Source: Lepiota brunneoincarnata (lineage: Eukaryota; Basidiomycota; Agaricomycetes; Agaricales; Agaricaceae). Taken from it: a DNA stretch of 64,000 bases. The notes under the pieces are model-generated. The model saw only the letters and a list, made by a program, of their open reading frames with translations, was not told the origin of the DNA and made no database searches. The stretch is taken from positions 62,001-126,000 of the forward strand of contig JAEBUN010000041.1 in the NCBI GenBank assembly GCA_023014365.1. Reading direction: 5' to 3'. Every line of letters starts with the position of its first letter. Position 1 is the first letter of the stretch. This document shows positions 25,667-48,959 of this stretch, one piece after another. The position numbers and the translations under genes are program-made.

Positions 25667-26653
25667 CTATGAGATGTTTAGCTTATTGGCGATGATTTCT
25701 TTGACCTTGGAGATGTCCCACTCATTTGGCCACCAGTTGTCTGTTGCATCATAGAAGGCTTCTGGTTGGTCATGCCTTCTTGGTCTCCATGCATATGGAT
25801 CTTCTCCTGCCTCTGCCTTGATGAGTTTGGGTTCATACCCTAGTTCATTGCCTGAATCGTCATCCTCCCATAGGTTTTTGGATTTCTTGACCACTTGGCT
25901 CCAGTTGGTCAGTTTCTCTACTGTTACCATCTCCGTTTCTCCTGATATAGCCCCTGCCAGGTTTTGGGCAAAGATCTTTTGTTTCATTTCCCTAGGCTTG
26001 TCGCTTGGGATTTTGATTTCTGTTTCTGTGCATTTTGCCTTTTTATTTGGAGGGGGTTTGTGTGCTTTCATCACCTCTGATAGTTTGGACCCTGGATATT
26101 TCTGGGCCTTCGACCCTGTTAGTGGGGTCGTCTTTCTCTGGGTTGGCAACGTCCCCATTTGTGCCTTTGGTGTTTTGCCTTTCCCTGCTAGGCTTTTCCT
26201 TGTTATTCTTGGTCTGCCTGCCAGGGGGCCTCCCATTTCCTCTATTGTAATGCTGTCTGGGACATATGGGTCTTCATCCATAGGCTTTGCCACTGATTTT
26301 CTTTTTACCACTTTTCTTATTGTGTGTTTTGGGGAGGGTAGTTTCAGGGTTTCCTCTTTCTCATCAATGTCCATCTCAATTGTTAGTTGTCCAAGGTCAT
26401 CTATGTCTCCCATATCCTCTTTATCTGATATTTCTATATCAGCCTCCTTTTCTTTTTCGCTCTCCTCATCTGATGTCCCAATTTCCAAAGATGAGGATGT
26501 TGCTAGTTCCTCTTGGGGGAGGCATTTTCTTTTCTGAGTGGTTTCAGTTTTTGGAGTGGACATGATGGTGTAGTGTTTCGGGGTTTTTAAGCTTTGTCTG
26601 CTTTTAGCATTTTTCTTATTGGTTCTCACAGGGGCTAGCAACTTGGTTGCCAC
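25667..26653 (-). CDS. Orphan 328-aa basic/acidic protein, unknown
   Basis: A single uninterrupted ORF starting MATKLLAPVRTNKKNAKSRQ. The N-terminal third is Lys/Thr-rich with an acidic Ser/Glu/Asp block (about residues 50-110). The middle is Pro/Lys-rich with RKSVAKPMDEDPYVPDS and NKKAKC. The C-terminus is Trp-containing and well ordered in appearance (NWSQVVKKSKNLWEDDDSG, AWRPRRHDQP, WWPNEWDISKVKEIIANKLN). I recognise no family. An open frame of this length amid ruined elements suggests recent coding. It could be a host gene, a capsid-like ORF of an unrecognised retroelement, or a captured gene. The plus-strand ORF at 25818-26537 is its shadow. Confidence 0.5.
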   Translation of the reverse strand: MATKLLAPVRTNKKNAKSRQSLKTPKHYTIMSTPKTETTQKRKCLPQEELATSSSLEIGTSDEESEKEKEADIEISDKEDMGDIDDLGQLTIEMDIDEKEETLKLPSPKHTIRKVVKRKSVAKPMDEDPYVPDSITIEEMGGPLAGRPRITRKSLAGKGKTPKAQMGTLPTQRKTTPLTGSKAQKYPGSKLSEVMKAHKPPPNKKAKCTETEIKIPSDKPREMKQKIFAQNLAGAISGETEMVTVEKLTNWSQVVKKSKNLWEDDDSGNELGYEPKLIKAEAGEDPYAWRPRRHDQPEAFYDATDNWWPNEWDISKVKEIIANKLNIS

Positions 26654-27165
26654 CTAGTTTTTACTTGGTTTATTTCTCGTTTACTTTTACTTTTAGGTGT
26701 TTCTTATTTTGAGGTGGTCTGTTATCACTTTAATTTTGATCATCTGTCTCTTAGTTTCCTCTTTTACGGTTTTCTACTTTGTATTGGTCTAGGGTCTAGG
26801 GTCTTTGTTTTATTTTATGGTCTATGGTTTTCTTTTTCATTATTCTATACTCCTTCATCTTTTGACTTAGGTTGTTCTGTGTCTTTTCTGTCCCCCTATC
26901 TCTTAATGCTATAGGTGGTTCTGTATCAGGATGCTTTTAAGAGTTCCCCATTTTGTTCTGTTCCATCAGTTCCTGTTTTGTTATTTTTTGTCTTGTCTTT
27001 TCTACCCGCTGCCAGTAGAGCTTCTTAACTCAGTAGCTCTTGGTGCTGGACTAGATCTAAAGAAATCGTTTTCCTCTTTCCCTTTGGTTATTTTGTGCTT
27101 TGGTTTCTCCTCAGAATAAGGGTACTCAGCCCAGGGCCTGCGACAAGGGACACAGGGTTTGGGTA
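26654..27165. other. Pyrimidine-rich stretch upstream of the orphan ORF
   Basis: The plus strand is strongly T/C-rich (26690-27010), so the minus strand upstream of the orphan ORF is purine-rich. Short tandem words TAGGGTC occur near 26790. It contains no conserved coding. It may be the promoter/leader of the orphan ORF. Homology to gypsy-3 ORF3 ends at about 27165. Confidence 0.4.
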
Positions 27166-29469: not shown

Positions 29470-30132
29470 TGTTAGAGCCGGTGCGGGTCGGGACCGAAAC
29501 GGAGGGTTGGGGTGGTATCCTTGGTATAAGGTAACCGGGGGACAGGGCGAAGTCAGTACGTAGACTTCGGGACCGAGGCGGAGTACGTCGGGCGGGGGGT
29601 TGGACTTGCGGCCTCAGCTTATGTGCTGTGCCCTCCTACTGTCCTAGTCCGTATTTCAGGAAGTCGGAGCCGAAGCGGAGCGAGGCAGAAGAGAGGAGAG
29701 GATATGGAACAGGGAGCTGGTCCGCTGCTCGATTCGATTATCAGACTGAGGAGTACAAGCCAAGTGCCTACGGTATATATACTACTAGCTCGACGAATGA
29801 TGACTCGTACTGACTACGTGCGGAGCGAAGCGGAGACCCATATGGTTACAAGCGGATTACAAATAATTTCGAATGGAATGGAGACCGGTACGGGTATGGA
29901 GACTGGTAACGTATTCTGATTACGGACGGAGAATGGAGAACTGGACAATGGGAGCACCGAGGGTCAGGTGGTCGTGGCACGTGTAGAGGTAGGTCGCGTG
30001 ATCGGGGCGAAGGGTTGCGGTCGGAGCCAGTCGGGGCCGAGTCGGAGGGCATAGGGTTGTCGTGTGGAGCACACGTGGAGTTGAGAAGCCGAAGCCTAAT
30101 GGTTAAGCTCTAGGTTTGGTGTGGATATGACA
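29470..30132 (-). repeat. 3' LTR of gypsy D1
   Basis: 663 bp. In element orientation it begins TGTCATATCCACACC and ends CGGCTCTAACA. It holds one copy of the GGGACCGAAACGGAGGG unit, where the 5' LTR has five. It also contains short direct-repeat words GAAGCGGAG. Confidence 0.95.
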
Positions 30133-30146
30133 GTGCCCCCCCTTTA
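30133..30146 (-). other. Polypurine tract of D1
   Basis: In minus reading TAAAGGGGGGGCAC directly precedes the 3' LTR start TGTCAT. D2 has the same tract at 47126-47139. It is the expected plus-strand primer. Confidence 0.85.
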
Positions 30147-30207
30147 GGGCCGAGCCTCGAGGCCCAAGGCGGTCTAGACCGGGGCCCACCGGAAAATTCC
30201 ACGAGGG

Positions 30208-30218
30208 TATAAAAAAAA
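30208..30218 (+). promoter_or_regulatory. TATA box of the D1 antisense gene
   Basis: TATAAAAAAAA lies about 58 bp upstream of the antisense ATG (30267), outside the LTR. D2 keeps TATAAAAA at the same relative place (47056-47063, minus strand). The interval from the LTR to the TATA box contains conserved palindromic words (CCTCGAGG, GGTCTAGACC) that could be operator sites; this is inference. Confidence 0.7.
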
Positions 30219-30266
30219 GGTGAACTGATTCGAATTTGAGAGGACACAACTTGACCTCCTACCCCC

Positions 30267-31352
30267 ATGAGCAGACAACCATCCCGTCAACCGACCGCTA
30301 CGGAGCGCAAGGCGCGATTACTGAGAGAGAAGGCGGAGCGAGAGGAACGAGAGCGGCTCGAAATCGAGAGGCTAGAAGAAGAGGAACGGCGAGAGGAGGA
30401 GGAGCGGTGGCTGGCAATAGAACGCCAAGAGGAGGAGCGACGGCGGCTCATAGAGCTGCGCCAGCGACAAGCGGAAGAGCGCGCGAAGGAGCAATATGCG
30501 GAGGAGATCAGGAGGCAGCAAGAGGAAACCGCCGAGGCAGAGCGTCGGGCGATTCGGGCCCGACTCGTTGCGACGACCACAGGGGCCTCATCGAGCCGCC
30601 TGTCGGAAGACCCGATGCAAGTAGATACGGAGGAGTCGGATTCCGAATATACGGATAGGGATGAGGCGAGGGACGAGGAGGAAGAGGGGGAGGAGGACTC
30701 CGGGGATTCAGGGGGTAAGGGTAAGGGGAAGGCAAAGGCGAGGGCGGCCCCGCGACGGGGCCATGCGCACGTATTCGGGGGCGAGAATCCCTGCTGGAGG
30801 TGCCAGCGAGACGGGGCCCCATGTGAGGTGGCCGGCGGGTAAGTCATTTTGGAGGATTTCCGGACTACATACTGATAGTTTCTTAGTAACACCAGGAGTT
30901 GCCGTTGGTGCAGCAAAATGAAAAAACGGTGCGGGGGTCAAGAGGAGACGGAGCCGAGCGGGGCCGGTGGTTTGTCGGGCCAGCAATTCGAAGGTGAGTA
31001 AGGAATCCTGTATTATGATGGATGCCAATTGATGGACCTTGTAGAGTTGAAACGGCTCATCGAAGAAAGGCACCAGGAGACCGTCAAGAAAATCTACACC
31101 CTGGAGGTGCGAATTGAGCGGTCCATCGCTCGGTTGGGGGAAAAGGTCGACAAGATGGGGTCGCTTGCTGGCCGCTACGAGCAACTACGGCGTTGGGAGG
31201 CTCAGGTGGACAGAAATTGGTCGAGTGGAAATTTTTCGGAGACGGAGGGTTCGGAGGGGAGTGTCGGGCCCGCTTCGGAGGAGGAGGTGCAGGATTTGAT
31301 GGAAGAAGTGAATGGGTCGCCCAGGCTCTCTGGAGACGACACCGATAGGTAG
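30267..31352 (+). CDS. D1 antisense gene: Zn2Cys6-like coiled-coil protein, three exons
   Basis: Exons 30267-30838, 30896-30993 and 31045-31352, joined by GT-AG introns of 57 and 51 nt, give 325 aa. Residues 10-105 are an Arg/Glu-rich coiled coil (EREERERLEIERLEEEE), 115-150 are acidic, and 150-165 are basic (KGKGKAKARAAPRRG). Six cysteines at 176, 179, 186, 193, 196 and 203 follow C-X2-C-X6-C-X6-C-X2-C-X6-C, the spacing of fungal Zn2Cys6 clusters; intron 1 falls inside the middle loop. Exon 3 is another coiled coil (ELKRLIEERHQETVKK) with an acidic tail. It is convergent with pol (69-bp gap). D2 carries an open homologue with identical intron phases. A DNA- or protein-binding regulator is plausible; the function is unknown. 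Confidence 0.85.
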
Positions 31353-31421
31353 TTGTACGGGGTTGTTTTTTTGGTTTGTTTAATACATGGTTGTTTCTTG
31401 GTGCAATGTGTGGTCAGTAAC

Positions 31422-34400
31422 TCAAAGTGAGTGAAGAGGACCAGGCTTTGCAGGGTAAGAGGAATGAAAAGCCTCTACGAGATCTATAGCATGTTCAAGC
31501 TCGGTGGCTGGCAACCACGAGGACTCTTCTTCAGTGTCTTCGTAACCTAACCAGATGACTTTATAGAGGAGCTTGCACGCGCGGCGCCGATCGATCTTAG
31601 AGTCGACGATGCGGGCAATCTCGTATTCTGGTTCACCGTCAATGGAAACCGGCGCGGGCGGCGGATCCGATCGGGCGGGTATGGTGTTAGGTGTGGCTGG
31701 TTCGAGCATGGAAACATGGAAGACTGGGTGTACTCCACGCATGGAGTCGGGAAGTCGGAGTGTAAGGGAGTGAGTACCTGCTTGTGCAATGATCTCATAA
31801 GGCCCAAGGTACTTTTCGGAGAGTTTTTTGGAGGGACGGGTGGTGCGGAAGAATTGGGCTTTCACGAATACCTTTTGTCCAACCTTGAAGTCCGGGGTGG
31901 GGAGTCGGCGGGCGTCGGCGGAGGTCTGATAATGTTGCTGGGCTAGCGCTATTTCGGACTTCAGGGTGGTATGTAGGTCGTCGAGATCAATAGCAAAATG
32001 GCGGGCCCGGGCGGAGGCAAGATCGCGTTCAGGATGAACTGTGATGTTCGGATGGTATCCTTTATTAGCAAAGAATGGGGAGATACCGGTGGTGGCACTA
32101 GGAGCGTTGTTGTAAGCAAACTCAGCCAGGGGTAGTAATTCGGACCAATTGTCCTGTTGGTAGTTACAATAGACCCGAAGGTATTGTTCGAGGGTCTGGT
32201 TGGTGCGTTCCGTTTGTCCGTCGCCTTCTGGATGGTAACCCGAGGTGAAATGTAGCTTCATGTCAAGGGCTTGTCCCAATGAGCGGAAGAAGTGGGAGAC
32301 GAATTCGGAGCCGCGGTCGGAGGTAACATGTTCGGGTACGCCGTGCTTGGAGAAGACGTGGAGGACGAATAGGTGGGCGAGGTCGGAGGAGGTGACGGTA
32401 TCATAAGTCGGGATGAAGAGGGATTGCTTGGTGAGTCTGTCAACGATTACCAGGATGGCGTCATAGCCGGAGGAGGCGGGAAGTTTTTCGATGAAGTCCA
32501 TGGAGATTGAATTCCAAGGGCGTTCGGGGATGGGGAGTTGCTTAAGGAGACCGTAGGGGCGATGGCGCTGGGGTTTAGACCTCATACAGGTGACGCAAGA
32601 CTTACAGAAATCCTTGACGAAGGTGCGGACGCTAGGCCAGGTGTATTCGCGCCGGATGAGTTCCAGCGTTTTATTCTGACCGAAGTGGCCGGCTAGGACG
32701 TGATCATGCTTGTACTGGAGGACCCGAAGTCGGAGATTGTCGGTGTCAGGGACGTAGATTCTGTCGTCTAAGAGGAGGAAACCTTTATCATTAACTGACC
32801 AACGGCCTTCTGGGCTGGCAAGATGGGTGGAAGCGGTCGGATCCGCTGGTAGGGGCGGCGAGAATATCGCGGTGTAGCTGATCGAGGTCCATGACTACAG
32901 CTGCGCGAAGGGAAGGGGCGTAAAGAGTGGTGGCACGGACGGAGGCCGCGAGCTGTTCGTGAGTGAACACAGGCCGGAAGTTGTGCGGGTTGACTGATGC
33001 ATAGTCGCTATTCCCCCCTTTAGGGTAGACGTCCCATCGTCTAGTTAGGGCGTCAGGCTTGGTGCCGAGGCGGCCGGGTCGGAAACGGATGACGAGGTGG
33101 AATTGGGATAGGAACTCGGACCAACGAGCTTGGCGGCGAGTCAGGATCTTGGTGGTGCAGAAGTATTCGAGGTTCTTGTGGTCAGTGACCACATCAATAG
33201 CAAGGGGGGCACCTTCGAGATAGTGCCGCCAGATGCGAAAGGCTTCGAATATCGCCAGGAGTTCCTTGTCGTGAGTGTCATAGTTGAGTTCGGCCGTGTT
33301 AAAGGTGCGGGAATGGAATGCAACGGGATGGACCTCCCCATCGTCGGTGACGATAGAGAGGATTGCCGCAAGGGCGTAGTCGGAGGCGTCGGTCTCGACA
33401 ATGATCTGAGCGTCGGGGACCCAAGGAGTGAGGACGGGGGCGGAGATAAATGCTTCCTTCAGGGAGTTAAAGGCCTCGCGACAATCATCAGTAAAATTCC
33501 ACTTCACGTCTTTGCGGGTGAGGCGAGTGAGCGGAACGACGATGTCGGAGTATCCGTGAATGAAGCGACGGTAGAAATTGGCGAAGCCTAGGAAGGACTG
33601 GATGTCCTTGACTTTCTTAGGCTCAGGCCACTCCTGGATGGTCTTGACCTTAGATTGGTCCATTCGGAGGCCGTCGGGGGAGAGAATGTAGCCGAGATAT
33701 TCCACTGTGTCAGAGTGGAACTGGCATTTGTCAGGGCGGGCGTATAGACCGTGTTGGCGGAGCCGCTTGAGGACCTCCTTGACTTGGTCACGATGGATAC
33801 TATGGTTGTCGGAGTATATCAGAATGTCATCAAGGTAGATAGTAACGCAGACGTTGAGCATGTCCTTGAATATATCGTTCATGAACCGCTGGAAGGTGGC
33901 GGGGGCATTGGTGAGGCCGAAAGGCATGACCATCCATTCGAAGGAGCCGTAGCGGGTCCGAAAGGCGGTCTTCCATTCGTCGCCGTCAGCAACGCGGACA
34001 AGATGGTAGGCGTGGCAGAGGTCGATCTTGGTATATACGCAAGCTTTGCGAGGGGAGTCTAAGAGGTCGGAGATGAGCGGAAGGGGATAGCGGTCCTTCT
34101 TGGTGATACGGTTGAGACCTCTAAAATCAACGCATAAGCGGAGGGAGCCGTCCTTTTTCTTGACGAAGAGGACCGGGGCTCCATGAGGGGAAGTGGAGGG
34201 GCGGATGAAACCAATAGATAAATGTTCGTCAATAAAATCACGTAGAGCTCCAAGCTCCGATTGTGAAAGGGAGTAAATGGTACCGACCGGAGGCTGACCG
34301 CCATCCTCTAGGTTAATCTGGAGGTCGTAAGGGCGGTGTGGAGCAAGTGTGTCAGCACGCGATTTACTGAAAACGTCAGCGAACTCGTGGTATTCCTCGG

Positions 34401-35230
34401 GGATAGACGAGAGGTCAGGCGGTTCCTCGGAGACAGAAGAGGACGCGGCCGATGCGGAGGCGGCGGAAAGATTTATTCGGAATTGTTGGGAGCCAGGGAG
34501 CTTGGCAGCGCGGATAAAGGCAGGAGCGTTTATCAAGGAGATGTGCGGTTTCGCAAGGGGGACAGATTGGGACGAGGTCCCGGACAGGGGTGGTGAACCT
34601 AGGTCAGGAGAGTCAGGGGCGGCCATAGGCGGAGCCGATGCGGGTGCGACGCAGGTAGAGACGGAAGCAGGATTCTCAAGTAGGGATGGCCGGAAAGTAA
34701 TACTGCCCAAAGCCCAGTCAATCAATGGATTGTAGCGGGTGAGCCAGTTGTGTCCTAAGACCACAGAACAGGAAGAGTCGAGCCGGGTGACATAAGTGTC
34801 CAAAATGATAGATTCACCGGAGGGGAAAGATACAGGCAGTTGCGCAAGCTCCGTAATGTAGGCATTTGAGGTCCCATCAAATAACCGAAGTTCAATAGCC
34901 GGAATGGACGAGGTTGGAATACTATGAGAACGAACAAAAGATGAGTCCACAAAACAGTGAGTAGAACCACTATCAACAAGGGCTTTGAAAGGAGAAAGAG
35001 AAGAGAAATCAGAACTAACTACATTGTCCGTTGTAGAAATCGGGTCCGAAGCGGAGAGTACGGAAGCGGAGACAGAAGATACAGAAGTAATTAAAGGAGA
35101 AGTTAATGTGATATGAAAGGAGTTCGGGTCGGAAAGAGCGGACGCATTGAGACGGAAACTCTCTGGAGCACAGCAGAGTTCAATGCGATCCTCAGTCTGT
35201 GCAGAGGCCTGAGGACCGCCGACTATTTTT
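31422..35230 (-). CDS. D1 pol: PR-RT-RH-IN-chromodomain, one frameshift
   Basis: In minus reading pol lies in the -1 frame relative to gag and overlaps its end at the A5 run 35226-35230. Order: protease ALVDSGSTHCF (about 34965-34995); RT with LRLCVDFRGLN, PLPLISDLL, MPFGLTNAPATFQ and the catalytic TIYLDDILIYSDN (near 33830); RNase H ETDASDYALAAIL, HDKELLAIFEAF, TDHKNLEYF; integrase zinc finger (HVLAGHFGQ, FCKSCVTC); core DDE (SMDFIEKLPAS, TSDRGSEFVSHF, GYHPEGDGQTERTNQTLEQY); GPY module (YLGPYEIIAQAGTHS, HPVFHVSMLEP); and a chromodomain near 31560-31650 (EYEIARIVDSK, YKVIWLGYEDTEEESSW). One extra C in the run at 32852-32855 shifts the frame between RNase H and integrase; D2 lacks it. Otherwise intact, about 1270 codons. 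Confidence 0.95.
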
Positions 35231-36623
35231 CTGAGCTTGGGAGAGTTGGCGCATCTGTCTCGGGGAGCTGAGCCTGTCGGCCTTTAGCCTTGGCATCAGG
35301 GAATTTTTTCTTGTCGCAGTTAGCAGCCCTGTGATTGGGATCTGCGCAGACAAGGCAGAGGTTATTGTCGAAACGTCGTTGACGTTCCTCGGGGGTTAAT
35401 TTACCGTCCTTACCAAGTTTACTAGTAAGGTCGGATTTGGGCGGGGCCGATTTCTGACCGGCGGACGGGTTGGGCGGATTGCCCTTGAGGCTGGTGTTGG
35501 GCGTGCTGCCTCTGTTATTATTGGCAGGCTTGGCGGCAGGTTGCGGGTTGGTCGAGGTGGAAGGGGATGGGTTACCTCCAGGTTTCCTAGAGGCGGTCGG
35601 GTCCGAAACGGATTTGGCGCGGGCCTTCTCGCGTTGGCGTTCCCAGTAGCGAGCGTCGATCTTCATCGCTGCTGCTCGCATTTCGATGAAGGTGTCGGGC
35701 TTGCCGTCGGGCCGATTGGACAGAATGTCCTGGATGCGGTCGGGGAGGCCTTTGTAGTAGCGGTGACAGAATACTTCGTCACCCCAGCGGAGTTGGCCAG
35801 CTAGACGGAGGAAATCGACGTTGTAGACGGCGATCTTCTCGTTGTAGCGCATTCGGAGGGAGTCAAGCTGCTCAGCAGCTTCTCCGGTCGGATCCGCGGG
35901 ACCGAAATTGGTCTGCAGTTCCAGGGTGAACTGGTCCCAGTCCTCGATCCAGTCGTGTATTATTCCGTGGTTGTCGGCCTCGTCGAGGCCGATTTCGAAG
36001 TGTTGCTGTGCCACGCCTGTGAGGTATGTCAACGCGAAGTTGACCTTGGTGGCGGGGATAGCGAACTGGGCCGGGTTAGTACGGAAATAGAGCCGACATT
36101 GGAAGAGGAAGGGTTTGAGTTTGGCGGGGTCGGAACCTGTAAAGATGTCAGGTTCGCGAGCTTTGGTACGGGGAGATCGAGGAGGCTGTGGGGCTTGAGA
36201 GTTCCCACAGCCGTCCATTTGGTCGGCTATGCATTGGAAAACTCGGAGTATGAGTCTATCATGGTCGTCTCGGGTGTTGCCAGGTGGGATGTTGTTGTTG
36301 TTGTCGCCGTTGTCTGATGGTTCGTCGTCGCCCAGGGGCCCGTCCCCATTGTCAGGGTAGTCGTCGGGATCACTAGGGTCGCTGGGATCAGGATTGGGGT
36401 CGGGGCCGTCGTCGGGGCCGTCGGGAGTCCGGAATACTGAAGGTTGTATATCTTCAGAGAAACGGTCTGGGGTCGAGGGTGCGATCGATTGTTGGTGAGA
36501 GCGAGAAGCCCTCGGGGAGTCGGGTTGCAGTTCCTCGGAAGGAGGTTGTCGAGTGATGCGTTTGCTACGGCGAGCGGCTGGAGTTACCAGAGTGCGAGTA
36601 CGGGTAACTGTTCGAGAGACCAT
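35223..36623 (-). CDS. D1 gag, 466 aa, intact
   Basis: ATG at 36623, 54 bp after the 5' LTR. The N-terminus is basic (TRTRTLVTPAARRSKRITRQ), followed by a Pro/Asp/Gly-rich low-complexity region (about 60-110). The capsid domain (about 150-340) includes REPDIFTGSDPAKLKPFLFQ, CRLYFRTNPAQF, HFEIGLDEADNH and LRWGDEVFCHRYYKGLP. A linker and one C-X2-C-X4-H-X4-C knuckle (CLVCADPNHRAANC) follow. It forms the virus-like particle and packages RNA. The stop at 35223-35225 follows an A5 run that could let ribosomes slip -1 into pol. Confidence 0.95.
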   Translation of the reverse strand: MVSRTVTRTRTLVTPAARRSKRITRQPPSEELQPDSPRASRSHQQSIAPSTPDRFSEDIQPSVFRTPDGPDDGPDPNPDPSDPSDPDDYPDNGDGPLGDDEPSDNGDNNNNIPPGNTRDDHDRLILRVFQCIADQMDGCGNSQAPQPPRSPRTKAREPDIFTGSDPAKLKPFLFQCRLYFRTNPAQFAIPATKVNFALTYLTGVAQQHFEIGLDEADNHGIIHDWIEDWDQFTLELQTNFGPADPTGEAAEQLDSLRMRYNEKIAVYNVDFLRLAGQLRWGDEVFCHRYYKGLPDRIQDILSNRPDGKPDTFIEMRAAAMKIDARYWERQREKARAKSVSDPTASRKPGGNPSPSTSTNPQPAAKPANNNRGSTPNTSLKGNPPNPSAGQKSAPPKSDLTSKLGKDGKLTPEERQRRFDNNLCLVCADPNHRAANCDKKKFPDAKAKGRQAQLPETDAPTLPSSEK

Positions 36624-36677
36624 GGTTAGAAAAATTCAGAGTGTGGTGGACAGGAGGAGTTTGAGTCTGATAATACT

Positions 36678-37415
36678 GTTAGAGCCGGTGCGGGTCGGGA
36701 CCGAAACGGAGGGTCGGGACCGAAACGGAGGGTCGGGACCGAAACGGAGGGTCGGGACCGAAACGGAGGGTCGGGACCGAAACGGAGGGTCGGGGTGGTA
36801 TCCTTGGTATAAGGTAACCGGGGGACAGGGCGAAGTCAGTACGTAGACTTCGGGACCGAGGCGGAGTACGTCGGGCGGGGGGTTGGACTTGCGGCCTCAG
36901 CTTATGTGCTGTGCCCTCCTACTGTCCTAGTCCGTATTTCAGGAAGTCGGAGCCGAAGCGGAGCGAGGCAGAAGAGAGGAGAGGATATGGAACAGGGAGC
37001 TGGTCCGCTGCTCGATTCGATTATCAGACTGAGGAGTACAAGCCAAGTGCCTACGGTATATATACTACTAGCTCGACGAATGATGACTCGTACTGACTAC
37101 GTGCGGAGCGAAGCGGAGACCCATATGGTTACAAGCGGATTACAAATAATTTCGAATGGAATGGAGACCGGTACGGGTATGGAGACTGGTAACGTATTCT
37201 GATTACGGACGGAGAATGGAGAACTGGACAATGGGAGCACCGAGGGTCAGGTGGTCGTGGCACGTGTAGAGGTAGGTCGCGTGATCGGGGCGAAGGGTTG
37301 CGGTTGGAGCCAGTCGGGGCCGAGTCGGAGGGCATAGGGTTGTCGTGTGGAGCACACGTGGAGTCGAGAAGCCGAAGCCTAATGGTTAAGCTCTAGGTTT
37401 GGTGTGGATATGACA
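36678..37415 (-). repeat. 5' LTR of gypsy D1 with expanded 19-bp repeat
   Basis: 738 bp, about 75 bp longer than the 3' LTR because the GGGACCGAAACGGAGGGTC unit is present five times (about 36694-36790) instead of once. Otherwise nearly identical to 29470-30132. The repeat lies near the downstream (gag-proximal) end of the LTR. Confidence 0.95.
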
Positions 37416-39048: not shown

Positions 39049-39966
39049 TTAGCGATAAAAAGGTGTTCTGGAAGTACTGTGATTAAGTTTTGGTCTCCTA
39101 AGTTGTTTGAGGCAACAAAGAGATTGTCTGGAAGGATGGTGATGTCTTCATTGCTGTTATCCTCATCAGAGATGTGGTCTAGACATCTTAATAGAGTGTC
39201 TGGTGCCAGGATCTTTGATCCTGGGACATGTTCTAGTTTGAAGCTGTAGTCAGCGAGGGTCTGGACCCATTGTGCTTGTCAGCAGTTGATTTTCTGGGGT
39301 TTATGCTAGTATGTGAGGTTTTGGTAATCCGTTCTGATATGGATAGTATGGGGGCTGCCAAGGAGGTAGTGGCACCATTCTTTGAGGGCTCAGATAATAG
39401 CAAGGAGTTCCCTGTCATAGATGTCATAATTGTGTTCCACTGGTCTGAATGTTTTTGAATAGAATGATATGGGTTTTCATATTCCATTGATGTTGTGTTG
39501 ATATAAGACAGCCCCTGATGCAAATTTGGAAGCATTGGCTTCTATTTTGAAGGGTTTTGTGGAGTCAGGCATGAGGAGTACCAGTTCCTTTAAGGATTTG
39601 TTCTTGAGTGTTTCAAATGCTTTTTGTTGTTCTTCTTTCCATTCAAATTTGTTTGATTTGGACAGGAGTTGATTAAGGGGTTTGGTATGGTAGGAGTAGC
39701 TACGGATGAACTTCCAGTAGAAGTTACAGAATCCGATGAATTTGCAAACATGTTGGACTGTTTTCAGCACTGGCCAGTCTTCTATTCCTTTGAGTTTTCC
39801 AGGGTCTATTTTTATTTCATCTAGCTTGATGATCATGCCTAGGTATTTGAGTTGTTGTTTGTTGAACTTGCATTTCTCTGTTTTGAGGTAGAGGTTGTTT
39901 TCCTGCAGGATTTGCAGTACTTTTTCTGTAAGTCAGTCGGTTTCTTCTTGGGTTTTACTGTAGATT
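39049..39966 (-). pseudogene. gypsy-3 RT C-terminus and RNase H relic
   Basis: A minus-strand continuation of the RT at 47801: thumb/connection at 39477-39836 (EIKIDPGKLKGIEDWPVLKT, FIGFCNFYWKFIRSYSYHTK, KPFKIEANASKFASGAVLYQ) and RNase H at 39233-39480 (RELLAIIxALKEW-like, RTDYQNLTY-like). It ends at the integrase N-terminus, where element E cuts it. The last five bases, 39962-39966 (AGATT on plus), are one copy of the D2 target duplication. Confidence 0.88.
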
Positions 39967-40627
39967 TGTCATATCCATGCCAAACCCAGAGCTTAACCAT
40001 TATACTTCGGCTTCTCGACTCCACGTGCGCTCCACATAACAACCCTCTGCCCTCCGACTCGGCCCCGACCTGCTCCGACCGCAACCCACTGCCCCGATCA
40101 CGTGACCACCCCCACACATGCCATGGTCACCTGACCCTCGGTGTCTCATACCCCTGTCTCCATTTCCCGTCCGTAGTCAAGATACGTTATTAGTCTCCAT
40201 ACCTGTACCCGTTTCCATTCCATTCATAATCCGTTTGTAATCCGTTTGTAACTAGATCGGTCTCCGCTTCACTCCGCACGTAGTCAGTACAAGTCATAGT
40301 TCGTAAGGCCAGTAGTATATATACCATAGGTACTTGGCTTGTACTCCTCAGTCTGATAATCAAATCGAGCAGCAGACCAGCTCCCTGTTCTCTATCCTCT
40401 TCTCTCTTCTGCCTCGCTCCGCTTTGGCCCCAACTTCCTGAAATACGGACTAGGACAGTGGGAGGGCACAGCACATACGCTGAGGCCGCAAGTCCAACCC
40501 CCCACCCGACGTACTCCACCTCGGTCCCGAAGTCTATGTACTGACTTCGCCCTGTCCCCCGGTTACCTTATATCAAGGATACCACCCCAACCCTCCGCTT
40601 CGGTCCCGACCCGCACCGGCTCTAACA
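39967..40627 (+). repeat. 5' LTR of gypsy D2
   Basis: 661 bp, TGTCATATCCATGCC to CACCGGCTCTAACA. It contains a single copy of the repeat that is expanded in D1. GTATTATCAGACTG follows, where a primer site would be; I could not assign it to a tRNA. Confidence 0.95.
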
Positions 40628-40680
40628 GTATTATCAGACTGAAACTCCTCCTGTCCACCACACTCTGAATTTTTCTAACC

Positions 40681-42075
40681 ATGGTCTCTTGAACAGTTAC
40701 CCGTACTCACACTCTGGTAACTCCAGCTGTTTGCCGTAGTAGACGTGTCACTCGACAACCCCTTTCCAAAGAACTGCAACCCGACTCCCCGAGGGCTCCT
40801 CGCTCTTGTCTACAATCGGTCGTACCATTGACTCCCGACCACTTCTCTGAAGATATACAACCTTCAGTATTCTGGACTCCCGACGGCCCTGACGAAGGCC
40901 CCGACCCCAATCCTGATCCCAGTGACCCTGGTGATCCCAACGACAATCCTGACAATGGGGACGGGCCCCTGGGCGACGACAAACCATCAGACAACGGCGA
41001 CAACAACAACAACATCCCACCTGGCAACACCTGAGACAACCATGATAGACTCATACTCTGAGTTTTCCAACGCATAGCCGACCAAATGGATGGCCGTGGG
41101 AACTCTCAAGCCCCACAGCCTCCTCGATCTCCCCGTACCAAAGCTCGCAAACCTGACATCTTTACAGGTTCCGACCCTGCCAAACTCAAACCCTTCCTCT
41201 TCCAATGTCGGCTCTATTTCCGTACTAACCCAGCCCAGTTCGCTATCCCCGCCACCAAGGTCAACTTTGCGTTGACATACCTCACAGGCGTGGCACAGCA
41301 ACACTTCGAAATCGGCCTCAATGAGGCCGACAACCACAGAATAATACATGACTGGATCGAGGACTGGGACCAGTTCACCCTGGAACTGCAGACCAATTTC
41401 GGTCCCGCGGATCCGACCGGAGAAGCTGCTGAGCAGCTCGACTCCCTCCGAATGCGCTACAACGAGAAGATCGCCATCTACAATGTCGACTTTCTCCGCC
41501 TAGCTGGCCAACTCCGCTGGGGTGACAAAGTATTTTGTCACTGCTACTACAAAGGCCTCCCCGACCGCATCCAGGACATTCTGTCCAATTGGCCCGATGG
41601 CAAGCCCGACACCTTCATCGAAATGCGAGCAGCAGCGATGAAGATCGACGCTCGCTACTGGGAACGCGAGAAGGCCCGCGCTAAAGCCGCTTCGGACCCG
41701 ACCACCTCTAGGAAACCTGGAGGTAACCCATCCCCTTCCACCTCGACCAACCCGCAACCTGCCGCCAAGCCTGCCAATAATAACAGAGGCAGCATGCCCA
41801 ACACCAGCTTCAAGGGCAATCCGCCCAACCCATCCGCCGGTCAGAAATCGGCCCCGCCCAAATCCGACCTTACTAGTAAACTTGGTAAGGACGGTAAATT
41901 AACCCCCGAGGAACGTCAACGACGTTTTGACAATAACCTCTGCCTTGTCTGCGCAGATCCCAATCACAGGGCTGCCAACTGCGACAAGAAGAAATTCCCT
42001 GATGCCAAGGCTAAAGGCCGACAGGCTCAGCTCCCCGAGACAGATGCGCCAACTCTCCCAAGCTCAGAAAAATAG
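40681..42075 (+). pseudogene. D2 gag with three CGA-to-TGA stops
   Basis: Aligned to intact D1 gag it has stops at codon 4 (40690-40692), at about 41032-41034 and at about 41059-41061. Each is TGA where D1 has CGA (Arg). From 41086 the frame is open for 329 codons through the capsid and the CLVCADPNHRAANC knuckle to the stop at 42073-42075 after the A5 run 42068-42072. Confidence 0.93.
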
Positions 42076-45000
42076 TCGGCGGTCCTCAGGCCTCTGCACA
42101 GACTGAGGATCGCATTGAACTCTGCTGTGCTCCAGAGAGTTTCCATCTCAATGCGTCTGCTCTTTCCGACCCGAACTCTTTTCATATTACATTAACTTCC
42201 CCTTTAGTTACTTCTTTATCTCCTGTTTCCGCTTCTGTACTCTCCGCTTCAGACCTGCTTTCTGCAACGGACAATGTAGTTAGTTCTGTTTTCTCTTCTC
42301 TTTCTCCTTTCAAAGCTCTTGTTGATAGTGGTTCTACTCACTGTTTTGTGGACTCATCTTTTGTTCGTTCTCATAGTATTCCAACCTCGTCCATCCCGGC
42401 TATTGAACTTCGGTTATTTGACGGGACCTCAAATGCCTATATTACGGAGCTTGCGCAACTGCCTGTATCTTTCCCCTCCAGTGAATCTATCATTTTGGAC
42501 ACTTATGTCACCCGGCTCGACTCTTCCTGTTCTGTGGTCTTAGGACACAACTGGCTCACCCACTACAATCCGTTGATTGACTGGGCTTTGGGCAGTATTA
42601 CTTTCCGGCCATCCCTACTCGAGAATCCTGCTTCCGTCTCTACCTGCGTCGCACCCGCATCGGCTCCGCCTATGGCCGCCCCTGACTCTCCTGACCTAGG
42701 TTCACCACCCCTGTCCGGGACCTCGTCCCAATCTGTCCCCCTTGCGAAACCGCACATCTCCTTGATAAACGCTCCTGCCTTTATCCGCGCTGCCAAGCTC
42801 CCTGGCTCCCAACAATTCCAAATAAATCTTTCCGCCGCCTCCGCATCGGCCGCGTCCTCTTCTGTCTCCGAGGAACCGCCTGACCTCTCGTCTATCCCCG
42901 AGGAATACCACGAGTTCGCTGACGTTTTCAGTAAATCGCGTGCTGACACACTTGCTCCACACCGCCCTTACGACCTCCAGATTAACCTAGAGGATGGCGG
43001 TCAGCCTCCAGTCGGTACCATTTACTCCCTTTCACAATCAGAGCTTGGAGCTCTGCGTGATTTCATTGACAAACATTTATCTATTGGCTTCATTCGCCCC
43101 TCCGCTTCTCCTCATGGAGCCCCGGTCCTCTTCATCAAGAAGAAGGACGGCTCCCTCCGTTTATGTGTTGATTTTAGAGGTCTCAACCATATTACCAAGA
43201 AGGATCGCTACCCCCTTCCGCTCATCTCCGACCTCTTAGACTCCCCTCACAAAGCTTGCGTATATACCAAAATCGACCTCCGTCACGCTTACCATCTAGT
43301 CCGCGTTGCTGACGGCGACGAATGGAAGACCGCCTTTCAGACCCACTACGGCTCCTTCGAATGGATGGTTATGCCTTTCGGCCTCACCAATGCCCCCGCC
43401 ACCTTCCAGCAGTTCATGAACGATATATTCAAGGACATGCTCAACGTCTGCGTTACTATCTACCTTGACGACATTCTGATATACTCCGACAATCACAGTA
43501 TCCATCGTGACCAAGTCAAGGAGGTCCTCAAGCGGCTCCAACAACACGGTCTATATGCCTGCCCCAACAAATGCCAGTTCCACTCTGACACAGTGGAATA
43601 TCTCGGCTACATTCTTTCCCCCGACGGTCTCCGAATGGACCAATCTAAGGTCAAGACCATCCAGGAGTGGCTGGAACCCAAGAAAGTCAAGGACATCCAG
43701 TCCCTCTTAGGTTTCGCCAATTTCTACCGTCGCTTCATTCACGGTTACTCCGACATCGTCGTTCCGCTCACTCGCCTCACCCACAAAGATGTGAAATGGA
43801 ATTTCACTGACGAATGCCGTGAAGCCTTCAGTTCCCTGAAAGAAGCATTCATATCCGCCCCCGTCCTCACTCCTTGGGCCCCCGACGCTCAGATCATTGT
43901 CGAGACCGACGCCTCCGACTACGCCCTTGCAGCCATCCTCTCTATCATCATCAATGATGGTGAGGTTCACCCCATTGCATTCCATTCCTGCACCTTTAAC
44001 ACGGCCAAACTTAATTATGACACCCATGACAAGGAACTCTTGGCGATATTCGAGGCTTTTTGTATCTGGCGGCACTATCTTGAGGGTGCCCCTCTTACTA
44101 TTGACATAGTCACCGACCACAAAAACCTCAAATACTTTTGCACCACCAAAATCCTCACTCGCCGCCAAGCTCGTTGGTCCGAGTTCCTATCCCAATTCCA
44201 CCTCGTCATCCAGTTCCGACCTGGCCACCTTGGCACCAAGCCTGATGCCCTAACTAGACGATGGGACGTCTACCCTAAAGGGGGGAATAGCGACTATGCA
44301 TCAGTCAACCCGCACAATTTCCGACCCGTATTCACCCACAAACAGCTCACGGCCTCCGTCCGTGCCACCACTCTTTACGCCCCTTCCCTTCGCGCAGCTG
44401 TAGTCATGGACCTCGATCAGCTACACCGAGATATCCTCACCGCCCTACCAGTGGATCCGACCGCTTCCGCCCACCTTGCCACCCCAGAAGGCCGTTGGTC
44501 AGTCAACAATAAAGGTTTCCTCCTCCTAGACAACAGAATCTATGTCCCTGACACCGACAACCTCTGACTTCGGGTCCTCCAGTACAAGCATGATCATGTC
44601 CAAGCCGGCCACTTCAGTCAGAATAAAACGCTGGAACTCATCCGGTGCGAATACACCTGGCCTAGTGTCCGCACCTTCATCAAAGATTTCTGTAAGTCTT
44701 GTGTCACCTGTATGAGGTCTAAACCCCAGCGCCACCGCCCCTACGGTCTCCTCAAGCAACTCCCCATCCCTGAACACCCTTGGAATTCAATCTCCATGGA
44801 CTTCATTGAGAAACTTCCCGCCTCCTCCGGCTACGATGCCATCCTAGTAATAGTCGACAGACTCACCAAGCAATCATTATTCATCCCCACCTACGATACC
44901 GTCACCTCCTCCGACCTCGCCCGCCTATTCGTCCTCCACATCTTCTCCAAGCACGGCATACCCGAACATGTTACCTCCGACCGCGGCTCCGAATTCGTCT

Positions 45001-45875
45001 CTCACTTCTTCCGCTCATTGGGACAAGCCCTCAACATGAAACTACACTTCACTTTGGGCTACCACCCAGAAGGTGACGGACAGACGGAACGCACCAATCA
45101 GACCCTGGAACAATATCTCCGGGTCTATTGTAACTACCAACAGGACAATTGGTCCGAATTGCTACCACTAGCTGAGTTTGCTTACAACAACGCCCCTAGT
45201 GCCACCACCAGTATCTCCCCGTTCTTCGCTAATAAAGGATACCATCCGAACATCACAGTTCATCCTGAACGCGATCTCGCCTCCGCTTGGGCCCGCCATT
45301 TTGCTGTTGATCTCGACGACTTACATACTACCTTGAAGTCTGAAATAGCGCTAGCCCAGCAACACTACCAGATCTCTGCTGACACACGCCGTCTTCCCAC
45401 CCTGGACTTCAAGGTTGGACAAAAGGTGTTCGTTAAAGCCCAATTCTTCCGCACCACCCGTCCCTCCAAAAAGCTCTCCGAAAAGTTCCTTGGACCTTAC
45501 GAGATCATTGCCCAAGCGGGTACTCACTCCTTCACACTCCGACTTCCTGATTCCATGCGTGGAGTACACCCAGTCTTCCATGTTTCCATGCTCGAACCGT
45601 CCACGCCTAACACCATACCCGCCTGATTGGACCCGCCGCCCGCGCCAGTTTCTATTGACGGCGAACCCGAATACGAGATCGCTCGCATCGTCGACTCAAA
45701 GATTGATCGGCGCCGTGCATGCAAACTCCTCTACAAAGTCATTTGGTTAGGTTATGAAGACACTGAAGAAGAGTCTTCGTGGTTACCGGCTACTGAACTT
45801 GAACATGCCATAGATCTAGTAGAGGCTTTCCATTCCTCTTACCCCGCTAAGCCTGGCCCCCTCCATTCACTCTGA
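42068..45875 (+). pseudogene. D2 pol with two CGA-to-TGA stops
   Basis: Same domain order as D1: protease ALVDSGSTHCF (about 42318-42350), RT with TIYLDDILIYSDN (near 43460), RNase H (43890-44250), integrase (44590-45480; SMDFIEKLPAS, TSDRGSEFVSHF, EGDGQTERTNQTLEQY), GPY module and chromodomain (45660-45830; EYEIARIVDSK). Stops at 44565-44567 and 45624-45626 are TGA where D1 has CGA. It lacks the extra C that breaks D1, so the two copies are damaged at different places. Confidence 0.94.
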
Positions 45876-45962
45876 GTTTCCCACTGATCACCCATCACAC
45901 CAAGAAACAACAAGATTTATCAAAACAAAAAAAAGAAAAAAACTACACAAACGACTACCAAA

Positions 45963-47006
45963 TTACTTATCGTCTCCAGAGGGGCCGGGCAACTGTGCAG
46001 CATCATCCTCCATTAAGCCCCACACCTCCTCCTCCGAGGCAGCCCCGACGCTCTCCTCCAAACCCTCCATCTCCGTAACATTTCCACTCGACCAATTACA
46101 ATCCACCTGTGCCTCCCAACGCCACAGTTGCTCATAATGGCCCGCCGTCAGCTCGACCTTGTCCACCCTCTCCCCCAATCGAGCGATGGCCTGTACGAGC
46201 CACACTTCCATGATATTGACCCGTTTGAGGGTCTCCCGTTGCCCCTCCTCGATGAGTCGCTTCAGCTCTAAAAAATCATTGGTCAGCAAACCTCGCAGTC
46301 GGAAACCCCTAATCACCTTCAAATTGTTGGCCCGATATGCCCCCGGCCCTGCTTGGCTCCGTCTCCTCTTGACCCCCGCACCGTTTTTTCATTTTGCTGC
46401 ACCGACGGCAACTCCTGGTATTACTAAAACCCTATCAGTATGTATCCTGGAAAACTTTCACACAACTCACCCACTGGCGACCTCGCACTGGACCCCATCT
46501 TGCTCGCACCTCCAGCAGGGGTTCTCACCCCCGAATATGTTCGCATGGCCCCGTCGCGGGGCCGCCCTTGCCCTTGCTTTTCCCTTACCCCCTGTGTGCC
46601 CATAGTCCTCGTCCTCGTCCTCCTCCTCCTCATTTTCCGTCTCGTCCCTATCCGTGTAATCGGATTCCGACTCCTCCGTATCTACCTCCATCGGTTCTTC
46701 CGGCAGGCGGCTCGACGAAGCCCCCACAGTAGTTGCAACGAGCCTGGCCCGAATCACCCGATGCTCTGCCTCGGCAGCCTCGTCTTGTTGCCGCCTGATC
46801 TCTTCCGCCAGGTGCTCCCTTGCCCGCTCCTCCGCTTGTCGCTGATGCAGCGCTATCAGCCGCTGCCGCTCCTCCTCCTCTTGTCGCTCCTCCTCCTCCA
46901 ACCTCTCGATTTCCAGCCGCTCCCGCTCCTCTCGCTCAGCCTTCGCCCTCAGCAGTTGTGCCTTGCGCTCCGCGGCGGTCAGTTGTCGGGATGGTTGTCT
47001 GCTCAT
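45963..47006 (-). CDS. D2 antisense gene: Zn2Cys6-like coiled-coil protein, open
   Basis: Exons (minus) 47006-46471, 46414-46317 and 46267-45963, with introns of 56 and 49 nt at the same codon phases as D1, give 312 aa. Cysteines at 164, 167, 174, 181, 184 and 191 keep the C-X2-C-X6-C-X6-C-X2-C-X6-C spacing, and SKMKKRC is identical. The N-terminal Arg/Glu coiled coil, acidic block and basic patch are conserved; exon 3 is the most diverged. The second donor is GTGATT instead of GTGAGT, possibly weakened. No stops are present although gag-pol beside it is riddled. It converges on pol (stop at 45875). The plus-strand ORF 46440-47270 is its shadow. Confidence 0.82.
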
Positions 47007-47055
47007 GGGAGTATGGGGTTAAGTTGTGCTCTCCCAACTCAAACCAGTTCACCCG

Positions 47056-47063
47056 TTTTTATA
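47056..47063 (-). promoter_or_regulatory. TATA box of the D2 antisense gene
   Basis: TATAAAAA on the minus strand, about 50-57 bp upstream of the ATG at 47006, matching the position in D1 (30208). It lies between the antisense ORF and the polypurine tract. Confidence 0.7.
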
Positions 47064-47125
47064 CCCCGGCGGAGTTTTTCCAATGGGCCCCGGTCTAGAC
47101 CACCTAGGGCCTCGAGGCTTGGCCC

Positions 47126-47139
47126 TAAAGGGGGGGCAC
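47126..47139 (+). other. Polypurine tract of D2
   Basis: TAAAGGGGGGGCAC directly before the 3' LTR start TGTCAT, identical to D1. Confidence 0.85.
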
Positions 47140-47800
47140 TGTCATATCCATGCCAAACCCAGAGCTTAACCATTATACTTCGGCTTCTCAACTCCACGTG
47201 CGCTCCACATAACAACCCTCTGCCCTCCGACTCAGCCCCGACCTGCTCCAACCGCAACCCACTGCCCTGATCACACGACCACCCCCACATGTGCCGTGGT
47301 CACCTGACCCTCGGTGTCTCATACCCCCGTCTCCATTTCCCATCCGTAGTCAAGATACGTTATTAGTCTCCATACCTGTACCCATTTCCATTCCATTCGT
47401 AATCCATTTGTAATCCGTTTGTAACTAGATCGGTCTCCGCTTCACTCCGCACGTAGTCAGTACAAGTCATAGTTCGTAAGGCCAGTAGTATATATACCGT
47501 AGGTACTTGGCTTGTACTCCTCAGTCTGATAATCGAATCGAGCAGCGGACCAGCTCCCTGTTCTCTATCCTCTTCTCTCTTCTGCCTCACTCCGCTTCGG
47601 CCCCAACTTCCTGAAATACGGACTAGGACAGTAGGAGGGCACAGCACATACGCTGAGGCCGCAAGTCCAACCCCCCACCCGACGTACTCCACCTCGGTCC
47701 CGAAGTCTACGTACTGACTTCGCCCTGTCCCCCAGTTACCTTATATCAAGGATACCACCCTGACCCTCCGCTTCGGTCCTGACCCACACCGGCTCTAACA
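47140..47800 (+). repeat. 3' LTR of gypsy D2
   Basis: 661 bp, same length as the 5' LTR. Differences from the 5' LTR include CTCGACTCC/CTCAACTCC, GACTCGGCC/GACTCAGCC, CTCCGACCG/CTCCAACCG and CCCGATCACG/CCTGATCACA, nearly all transitions in CpG context. AGATT follows. Confidence 0.95.
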
Positions 47801-48959
47801 AGATTAGGATATCATTCCTGTAGATGATGATTCCTCCTTTCTCTATTATTTCAGAGAATAATGTGTCCATCATGTGTTGGAACATTGTGGGACTATTGCA
47901 GAGTCCAAACAACATTACAGTTGGTTCAAAAAGACCCATAGGAGTCTTGAATGCTGCTTTCCACTGATTGCCATCTTTGATTCTGATGTTATTGTATCCT
48001 AGGCAGATGTCAAGCTTAGTGAAGTTACTTAGCTCCTTTGAGTTTATCCATGATAGAGGAGATCATGGAGATTGGATAGGCATTTTTAATGGTATGATCA
48101 TTTAGATAACAATACTCTTGGCAGAGTCGGAGGTCTCCTTCTTTCTTGGCAACAAAGAAAAAGGGTGATGCCATAGGGGATTTTGAGGGGTGGATGTACC
48201 CTTTTTGGAGGTTTTCATCTATGAATTCTTTTAGTGCTTTTTCTTTGGCAGGTGCCACTTGATAAAGTTTCATTGATTTCACTTTGAATGTCAGTTTTAG
48301 TTCAATTTCATGATCAAACATTCTTGATGGTGGGAATCATTTGGAGGCTTTCTTGTTGAATATTTTAGCCCATCAGGCAAATCTCCAAGGAATTTCAGGT
48401 AGTTCCTTGTTTGATTCCAGTTGTTTTCCTTTTTGGTTTGCCAATTTTGTTGGGTTGTGTTGCTCATTGTGGAGCATTGTGGCATGTGTAGCTTTGGCAT
48501 TTACTTCTAATGGGGTTAGAAGCATCAGGTTCATTTCTCTTTTTAAAGAGAAGGTGTCAAGGTCAATGTTTGAAAGGTTGACATATTCTTCTGGGTTATC
48601 CTCAGGTTGAGAGGTTTTTCCAGCCATTATGTCCATGGCAATGGAATTGAGCTCAACAGGTCATTGTAAGGTTTTGAGGAGTTTTGAGAAGTCTTTGTAG
48701 TTGATTTGGGGTTTCTAAGAGAATGTCTTGGTTTTCCAGCTGATGTCAGGGTTGTATTGTTCCAACCAGGGAAATCCAATGATGAGGTCTTTCCCACTGG
48801 TATTTGTGATGTACACTCCTAGCATGCAATCTCTTCTATCAATGATGGTTCTGATTTTGATATATTCATGGATCTTGCCATGTTGATTATCAGTTCTGTC
48901 AACATTACTGAGAGGGATTGGTTAGTCCAGCCATTTGGTTTGATAACCATGTCATTCAA
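47801..48959 (-). pseudogene. gypsy-3 protease/RT N-terminal relic
   Basis: In minus reading: linker 48297-48960 (TMDIMAGKTSQPEDNPEEYV, SNIDLDTFSLKREMN), RT fingers 48025-48290 (VAPAKEKALKEF, GYIHPSKSPMASPFFF), palm (MGLFEPTVMLFGLCNSPTMF) and the catalytic site near 47820, where family-A IIIYMDD reads IIIYRND. The protease at about 48990 reads ALIGSGAQGNF (D to G). The element is dead. Confidence 0.88.

Follow-up and report, generated by a model that had tools for sequence, protein, structure and literature searches.

The role of the antisense extra genes found in LTR retrotransposons has been called unknown (PMC7264820). In plant gypsy elements, antisense open reading frames located between pol and the 3' LTR are represented by gene23 of Grande, TRP28 of Retand and those of RIRE2 and PvRetro13, and the antisense gene of Grande has its own promoter and encodes a nuclear protein (PMC7264820); for Retand, the available parts of the sources mention predicted DNA binding and frequent tandem repeats (PMC7264820; PMC11963269). 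Among fungi, brtn, credited to Zhao et al. 2011, appears in the available excerpts as an antisense extra gene of the Boty element of Botrytis cinerea (PMC7264820; PMC8365987). A short motif that is dense in its own family and has been spread by tandem repeats is described, in the accessible portion of the source, for VANC of Arabidopsis VANDAL elements (PMC5735166), and agaricomycete DNA transposons with TET/JBP genes have also been proposed, in the excerpt available, to evade methylation (PMC12730594).

Here, a stretch of 64,000 nt from Lepiota brunneoincarnata (contig JAEBUN010000041.1, positions 62,001 to 126,000 of the forward strand), referred to as the window, was analysed with regard to a Ty3/gypsy element, named D1, and its relative D2. 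The corresponding features are:

29470..37415, minus strand: Ty3/gypsy element D1, from LTR ends, duplications and Pfam domains
29470..30132, minus strand: D1 3' LTR, matching the 5' LTR at 99.5% identity over 649 bp
30135..30144, minus strand: polypurine tract adjoining the D1 3' LTR, from sequence
31422..36635, minus strand: D1 gag-pol region, with ORFs 35223-36635, 32791-35283 and 31422-32894
36677..37415, minus strand: D1 5' LTR, whose extra length is a tandem array of a 19-bp unit
39967..47800, plus strand: element D2, an older D1 relative in opposite orientation, with target duplication AGATT
about 45963..47006, minus strand: copy of the antisense gene in D2, from sequence comparison with D1

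D1 is flanked at both ends by the target duplication GGTAT. Its ORFs encode Gag, protease-RT-RNase H and an integrase with chromodomain, as retrieved by a Pfam scan (RVP_2, RVT_1, RT_RNaseH, Integrase_H2C2, rve, and Chromo at 1.1e-7), and this order of gag, PR, RT, RNase H and IN, with a chromodomain on IN, is that of chromodomain Ty3/gypsy elements. In D1, pol occupies two ORFs that differ in frame; other copies have an unbroken frame of ~1286 codons. The idea of a missing nucleocapsid knuckle was rejected, a CCHC knuckle being present in the Gag of both D1 and D2. The 19-bp unit occurs ~5 times at 36692-36813 in the D1 5' LTR and once in the 3' LTR, so that the expansion affects one LTR only although the two are otherwise 99.5% identical. 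D2 shares 90% identity with D1 over 7.3 kb and sits inside an older repeat (39052-39966 and 47801-48074; also 12070-12983), an unbroken relative of which is found at 11803-12983. The protein database contains integrase relatives, the named ones being agaricomycetes, e.g. Trametes, Paxillus, Pisolithus and Scleroderma, which points to an agaricomycete as the probable host. A distant pol was used to look for a second gypsy family in the genome; each of the 59 matches scored shared 64-66% identity with this query, and most fell at D-element places or had D-element lengths, giving no clear outgroup among them.

Between the D1 3' LTR (29470-30132) and the end of the pol ORF (31422), the plus strand carries an antisense gene that begins with the ATG at 30267, ends with the stop codon at 31352 and contains two introns, with a predicted spliced product of 325 aa. 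These coordinates and this product had been put forward in a sequence-only reading of the window and were recovered when the exons were re-derived, and the LTR ends and the GGTAT duplications confirm the position that it gave the gene, inside a minus-strand element with pol on one side and the 3' LTR on the other. The gene is organised as follows:

30208..30215, plus strand: candidate TATA box TATAAAAA of the antisense gene, from sequence, in 69/71 copies
30267..30838, plus strand: exon 1, encoding the charged Arg/Glu helix, an acidic region, the basic GKGKGKAKARAAPRRG stretch and cysteines 1-3
30839..30895, plus strand: intron 1, 57 nt, GT in 70/71 copies
30896..30993, plus strand: exon 2, with cysteines 4-6 and linker, and a recombination switch point near its 3' end
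30994..31044, plus strand: intron 2, 51 nt, GT in 71/71 and AG in 71/71 copies
31045..31352, plus strand: exon 3, with probable short coiled coil, acidic tail and stop codon
30792..30932, plus strand: six-cysteine zinc-cluster-like motif, residues 176-203, divided by intron 1

The TATAAAAA sequence is found 56-65 nt before the ATG in 69/71 copies, and one of five A-rich hexamers provides a possible poly(A) signal in 70/71 (strict AATAAA in 11); scans for tRNAs and bacterial promoters were uninformative for this fungal DNA.

In position, orientation and family-wide presence, the D gene resembles the antisense additional ORFs (aORF-3R) of Grande, RIRE2, Retand and PvRetro13 (PMC7264820). It differs from them in that the available parts of the sources name no zinc cluster and mention no carpet of self-sites for the plant genes (PMC7264820; PMC11963269), and the accessible Retand text does not mention introns, whereas the D gene has two (PMC11963269). 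The brtn gene is likewise reported as antisense and additional in an LTR element of a fungus, a likeness drawn by description alone from partly accessible sources, and because it precedes the present case, the suggestion that such a gene is new for fungi was too broad. Among the records listed in open-access literature searches, none described an antisense zinc-cluster gene in an LTR element of a fungus. HBZ of HTLV-1 is, according to the part of the source at hand, likewise an antisense, 3' LTR-linked gene for a nuclear regulator (PMC11963269), but it belongs to a retrovirus and has a basic zipper instead of a zinc cluster, the likeness being one of gene position and role.

Because the introns of the antisense gene stay in the genomic RNA of the other strand, they are expected to survive retrotransposition, and the D gene would be an example from nature of introns that persist in a retrotransposon owing to antisense orientation. 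Antisense-intron reporters, used to measure retrotransposition, work by the same principle, and HBZ, which bears a leucine zipper, is itself a spliced product. A search with a joined exon 1-exon 2 query (40 of 165 candidates scored) returned no intron-less copy, none of the 79 matches listed crossing the junction ungapped, and the sole full-length row comprised 254 bases for the 198-base query. Processed gene capture was rejected on these grounds, both introns being retained.

The conservation of the gene was assessed in the 55.6-Mb assembly, which was searched with the D1 antisense protein and gave at least 284 exon-level matches (123 of 332 candidates scored). From these, the 30 best matches were taken together with 40 picked from all along the ranking, and two divergent copies were added afterwards, constituting a sample that is not random. 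One entry (L001) proved to be D1 and was removed, so that the set comprises 71 distinct copies, D1 and D2 among them, with L071 and L072 compared separately. As the copies were found by matching the gene, its presence in 71/71 says nothing on D elements without it. The splice-site dinucleotides are conserved throughout these 71 copies, donor 1 being GT in 70, donor 2 GT in 71 and the acceptors AG in 71, and the spliced frame is intact in 41 and broken in 30. All six cysteine positions are conserved in 70-71/71 copies each, and cysteine is the best-conserved residue type, with a mean of 0.995 vs 0.865 over all residues. The six-cysteine pattern, with 3-14 residues allowed between the halves, was recovered in 69/72 aligned rows, equivalent to 68/71 distinct copies; the failures are a frame shift at the motif in L037 and the loss of one cysteine each in L054 and L066.

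Among ten representatives, dN/dS ranged from 0.12 to 0.37 in 42/45 pairs, the remaining three being very close pairs (D1, L002, L012) with few changes and values of 0.37, 0.78 and 0.81. When pN/pS was pooled over 21 pairs of seven copies, exon 1 gave its lowest value of the six frames in the annotated frame (0.22, followed by an opposite-strand frame at 0.31); for exon 3 the minimum fell precisely on the splice-joined frame (0.39, followed by 0.56). Non-zero length differences, counted in cells that share ancestry, are divisible by three in 62/69 cells for exons and in 14/33 for introns. It was considered whether the antisense RNA, by forming double-stranded RNA, might be the functional product and not the protein, a notion to which the antisense position lends itself and which has been raised for plant elements (PMC7264820); the amino-acid constraint, the frame-keeping exon indels (62/69) and the conservation of the cysteines all speak against it, and we regard it as highly improbable. 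Even less credence is given to the gene being a passenger, taken up from the host not long ago and without function for the element: 30/71 aligned copies are indeed broken, but purifying constraint between subfamilies with an exon-1 dS of ~1.2 implies long selection within the element, and no close relative was retrieved from the protein database. A chance motif was rejected in view of the many copies, the frame constraint and the splice-site conservation. The survey of family D that had been suggested in the sequence-only reading found the gene in many other copies, D2 included, with splice sites and frame kept, so that the objection from absence falls away. The antisense ORF is almost certainly a real spliced gene, judging from these comparisons, which also support an antisense, intron-containing gene as typical of the D family.

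The predicted protein starts with a charged Arg/Glu helix (residues 12-100) without heptad signal (3136/5000 shuffles as good), continues with an acidic region (residues 118-150) and then with the basic GKGKGKAKARAAPRRG stretch, the cluster, a short coil (residues 222-262) whose heptad signal is weak (392/5000 shuffles as good) and an acidic tail. Two coiled coils had been claimed, the first of which is thus better described as a charged helix, while the second is only suggestive. Intron 1 falls between cysteines 3 and 4, in agreement with the claim that the motif is completed only after intron removal. The Zn2Cys6 spacing is C-x2-C-x6-C-x(5-12)-C-x2-C-x6-C, and D1 conforms to it. The more exact form claimed for residues 176-203, C-x2-C-x6-C-x6-C-x2-C-x6-C, holds for the 325-aa product, but its middle x6 depends on the acceptor used. 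Three in-frame AG acceptors, ending at 30886, 30895 and 30898, would give products of 328, 325 or 324 aa with a middle spacer of 9, 6 or 5 residues, and because each is conserved in 71/71 copies the exact x6 spacer is not settled.

In the Pfam scan of the full protein, Zn_clus (PF00172) was the sole family listed, with 13.5 bits vs a cut-off of 21; isolated motif pieces of D1 (21.3) and of the L045 type (22.2) lie above this cut-off and that of the L044 type (14.4) below, so that the HMM check proposed for the spliced protein gave a marginal match. In all three pieces, the first half (C-W-R-C-x3-G-x2-C) aligned to Zn_clus positions 15/16-31, the second half of the profile, and the basic loop SKMKKR is located in the second half of the cluster; for these two reasons the cluster halves look reversed with respect to Zn_clus, in which family the basic recognition half comes first. 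Against such a half-swap, the zinc clusters of Pho7 and Ppr1 in the PDB align collinearly with a 52-aa piece, whose only three PDB matches at E up to 10 were Pho7 twice and Ppr1, at non-significant E values of 0.28-0.35. A profile of five proteins retrieved from the PDB Pho7 twice, Ppr1 and two unrelated coils. For a 90-aa D1 piece, none of the 19 PDB sequences matched at E up to 10 bears a zinc-cluster name. Searches of the protein database with the antisense protein gave no match at E 0.001 among 1023 candidates and, in a second search, none at E 1 among 7991 candidates, and a search of viral contigs for relatives led nowhere. The D protein resembles Zn2Cys6 factors of the Pho7, Ppr1 and Gal4 type in its six-cysteine spacing and in having a cluster followed by a possible coil, but differs from them in the position of its basic residues in the second half, in its marginal Pfam score and in that its Pfam scan lists no other transcription-factor domain. 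The protein is described as Zn2Cys6-like and is not filed as a Zn2Cys6 member; it is predicted to bind zinc and DNA, for which the enrichment of CGG dyads described below offers indirect support.

Zinc-cluster dimers bind pairs of CGG triplets, CGG-triplet dyads being the site preference of Zn2Cys6 factors. The D element contains both a gene with a recognisable DNA-binding motif and a candidate target that can be counted, which makes the role of such antisense genes directly testable. In the window, CGG-N2-CCG occurs at 46 sites (32 in D1, 12 in D2 and 2 elsewhere), and all 23 composite CGG-N2-CCG-N3-CGG sites lie within D1 or D2. Those in the D1 LTRs are:

29489-29502, 29568-29581, 29665-29678 and 30032-30045, no strand: composite CGG-N2-CCG-N3-CGG sites in the D1 3' LTR, by pattern scan
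36696..36785, no strand: five composite sites within the 19-bp array that is confined to the 5' LTR, by pattern scan

The composite site at 30032-30045 is placed ~165 bp upstream of the candidate antisense TATA box.

Local nulls were used for the evaluation of these sites because whole-window shuffles are too lenient, D1 being GC-rich. In local dinucleotide shuffles, few spacings stand out in LTR and internal DNA, among them CGG-N2-CCG, CCG-N3-CGG and some direct CGG repeats. An unbiased scan of gapped trinucleotide pairs ranked CGG-N2-CCG first in gag-pol (15 observed vs 2.1 expected), fifteenth in the LTR (4 vs 0.38), where CCG-N3-CGG ranks first (6 vs 0.26), and twenty-eighth in the antisense-gene region (5 vs 0.71). 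In gag-pol, a synonymous-codon permutation, which preserves the amino-acid sequence and the codon counts, gave 15 vs 2.93 for CGG-N2-CCG and 8 vs 1.80 for CCG-N3-CGG (each 0/1000), these being the only 2 of 18 CGG-triplet spacings enriched there (next best 101/1000); both are also enriched in the D1 LTR. Should its coding DNA have been shaped by the element for regulator sites, this would represent an unusual selection on synonymous codons. A 10-kb control (54-64 kb of the window, GC 0.49) is not enriched, the counts being 2 vs 1.03 and 1 vs 1.05 for the two spacings, respectively. The pooled 45 kb outside D elements held 2 sites of each vs 0.375 and 0.125 expected.

The flanks of 24 non-redundant D1 sites are symmetric, with G/T before 22/24 and A/C after 21/24, as would be the case for a symmetric dimer, and the extended site is most likely close to TCGG-N2-CCGA, judged from these flanks. 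Genome-wide, TCGG-N2-CCGA was counted 1831 times vs 972 when read backwards, and the N3 form 886 vs 559, counts which are not used as support because the reversed-pattern control is also higher at the N2 spacing. Across 69 LTRs, dyad positions are conserved at 0.949 vs 0.950 for other CGG/CCG triplets, i.e. with no difference. The site tests rest mainly on one element and lineage, D1, related copies sharing sites by descent, as do most sites in 11 elements compared from LTR to pol; the exon 3 site is located at 31312 in a second type (L051, L060 and L039, not L036) vs 31265 in the first.

The dyads might be bound by a host zinc-cluster protein which the element exploits, the antisense protein then having another role. 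The genome contains at least 25 loci above the Zn_clus cut-off (81 candidates scored), none of those listed being an antisense gene copy analysed here; yet a 4.5-kb host stretch (GC 0.49), a small control, is not enriched (CGG-N2-CCG 1 vs 0.76, CCG-N3-CGG 1 vs 0.81) and the element itself codes a candidate of the right type, which leaves this reading improbable. A protein that does not act through CGG dyads, and instead partners Gag or integrase in the particle or integration complex and assists nuclear import, would fit the basic stretch and the charged helix as well as the reported nuclear location of the Grande antisense protein (PMC7264820). We nevertheless think it unlikely, considering that a CCHC knuckle is already provided by Gag in both elements, D1 and D2, and that the enrichment of two particular spacings would be left unexplained.

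The explanation we prefer, and to which we give somewhat better than an even chance on the sequence evidence, is that of an accessory regulator that binds DNA, probably as a dimer, and acts on the element by which it is encoded; that the antisense protein binds its own element is in itself rated as fairly probable. Weighing against this explanation are the full-length and L044-type Pfam scores below the cut-off, the 19 PDB matches without a zinc-cluster name, the protein database searches that retrieved no relative, the LTR dyads being conserved no better than other triplets, and the sites in the pooled 45 kb outside D elements. D-family elements would encode an antisense accessory protein, translated from a spliced transcript whose TATA promoter is next to the 3' LTR, and laid out as charged helix, acidic stretch, basic stretch, Zn2Cys6-like cluster and short coil. 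This protein would enter the nucleus, dimerise and bind CGG-N2-CCG in the LTRs and in gag-pol coding DNA, where it may activate transcription of the element or shield it from CpG-methylation silencing. LTR regulation had been among the functions suggested earlier, and a nuclear, LTR-regulating role is the best reading, which we infer from the motif and the site enrichment.

Activation, shielding and repression cannot be told apart by sequence, and the distribution of diversity within the gene bears on the last of these. Compared with L044, D1 is 98-99% identical over the first 300 bp of the LTR, 72-80% from 30080 to 30980, 97-100% from there to 31880 and 88-97% farther on; the pattern is reversed between L044 and L060, with 95-99% before the switch and 67-75% after it. 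These identity profiles imply independent exchange of two halves of the gene, one running from promoter to cluster and the other containing the coil, with the switch in exon 2. For the D1-L044 pair, dS amounts to 1.24 in exon 1, 0 in exon 3 and 0.11 in pol, and over 28 pairs dN/dS is 0.01-0.17 in pol vs 0.13-0.37 in the antisense gene. In mosaic copies (29470-33700 of the window; L032, L036, L044, L045 and L060), exon dS is near 1 and pol dS 0.03-0.40. The antisense gene is constrained, yet it holds much older diversity than the neighbouring sequence; template switching between co-packaged RNAs would be the simplest route to swaps of gene halves.

A self-limiting or exclusion factor, which would bind the same sites and repress transcription or block competing relatives, the half swaps reflecting competition between subfamilies, shares the site evidence with the preferred regulator. 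It would also accommodate an abrupt mosaicism largely confined to the antisense gene (between D1 and L044, 72-80% from the U3 end to exon 2, then 100%) and the contrast of dS between exon 1 (1.24) and pol (0.11). Target choice would depend on the cysteine cluster, which is however nearly identical in all subfamilies, and the family is high-copy with recent insertions, implying that any limitation is ineffective; on balance such a factor is rather unlikely.

Concerning silencing, 31 decayed copies were compared with their nearest intact relative, and transitions affected 675/6899 CpG positions vs 225/20460 other C/G positions, an 8.9-fold excess which suggests that the D family is CpG-methylated. 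The candidate CGG-N2-CCG site itself contains two CpGs. L072, which is outside the 31-copy set, has many arginine losses of the CpG-transition kind.

VANC and HBZ offer the nearest parallels in function, as the plant elements and Boty do in gene position. With VANC the likeness lies in both proteins being element-coded and DNA-binding (putatively so for the D protein) and the spread of the VANC motif by tandem repeats having its counterpart in the 19-bp array of D1. The two systems differ in that VANDAL elements are DNA transposons and that, in the available part of the VANC source, motifs are mainly non-coding, whereas those of D1 are also in coding DNA. Demethylation is shown for VANC in that text, and the D family parallel consists of a dense own motif, an array and CpG decay of copies. 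If the coding DNA has indeed been shaped to hold such sites, the D system would be a possible fungal counterpart of plant anti-silencing proteins. A net effect on the element that is positive has, in our estimate from sequence, a little less than an even chance. The fullest version of the preferred reading, in which a permuted-cluster protein counters silencing or transactivates through a symmetric target written into synonymous gag-pol positions, with the whole element as landing pad and the gene halves as cassettes, is put forward tentatively and as doubtful.

Other features of the window include a 328-codon stop-to-stop frame without Pfam match (25667-26653, minus strand), overlapped by an extreme AT skew of -0.554 at 26001-27000, an AT-rich second gypsy remnant with RNase H and integrase Pfam hits at 12283-13344, and, at 54893-56529, pieces of transposase in which HTH_psq, Tc5 DNA-binding and DDE_1 domains are recognised.
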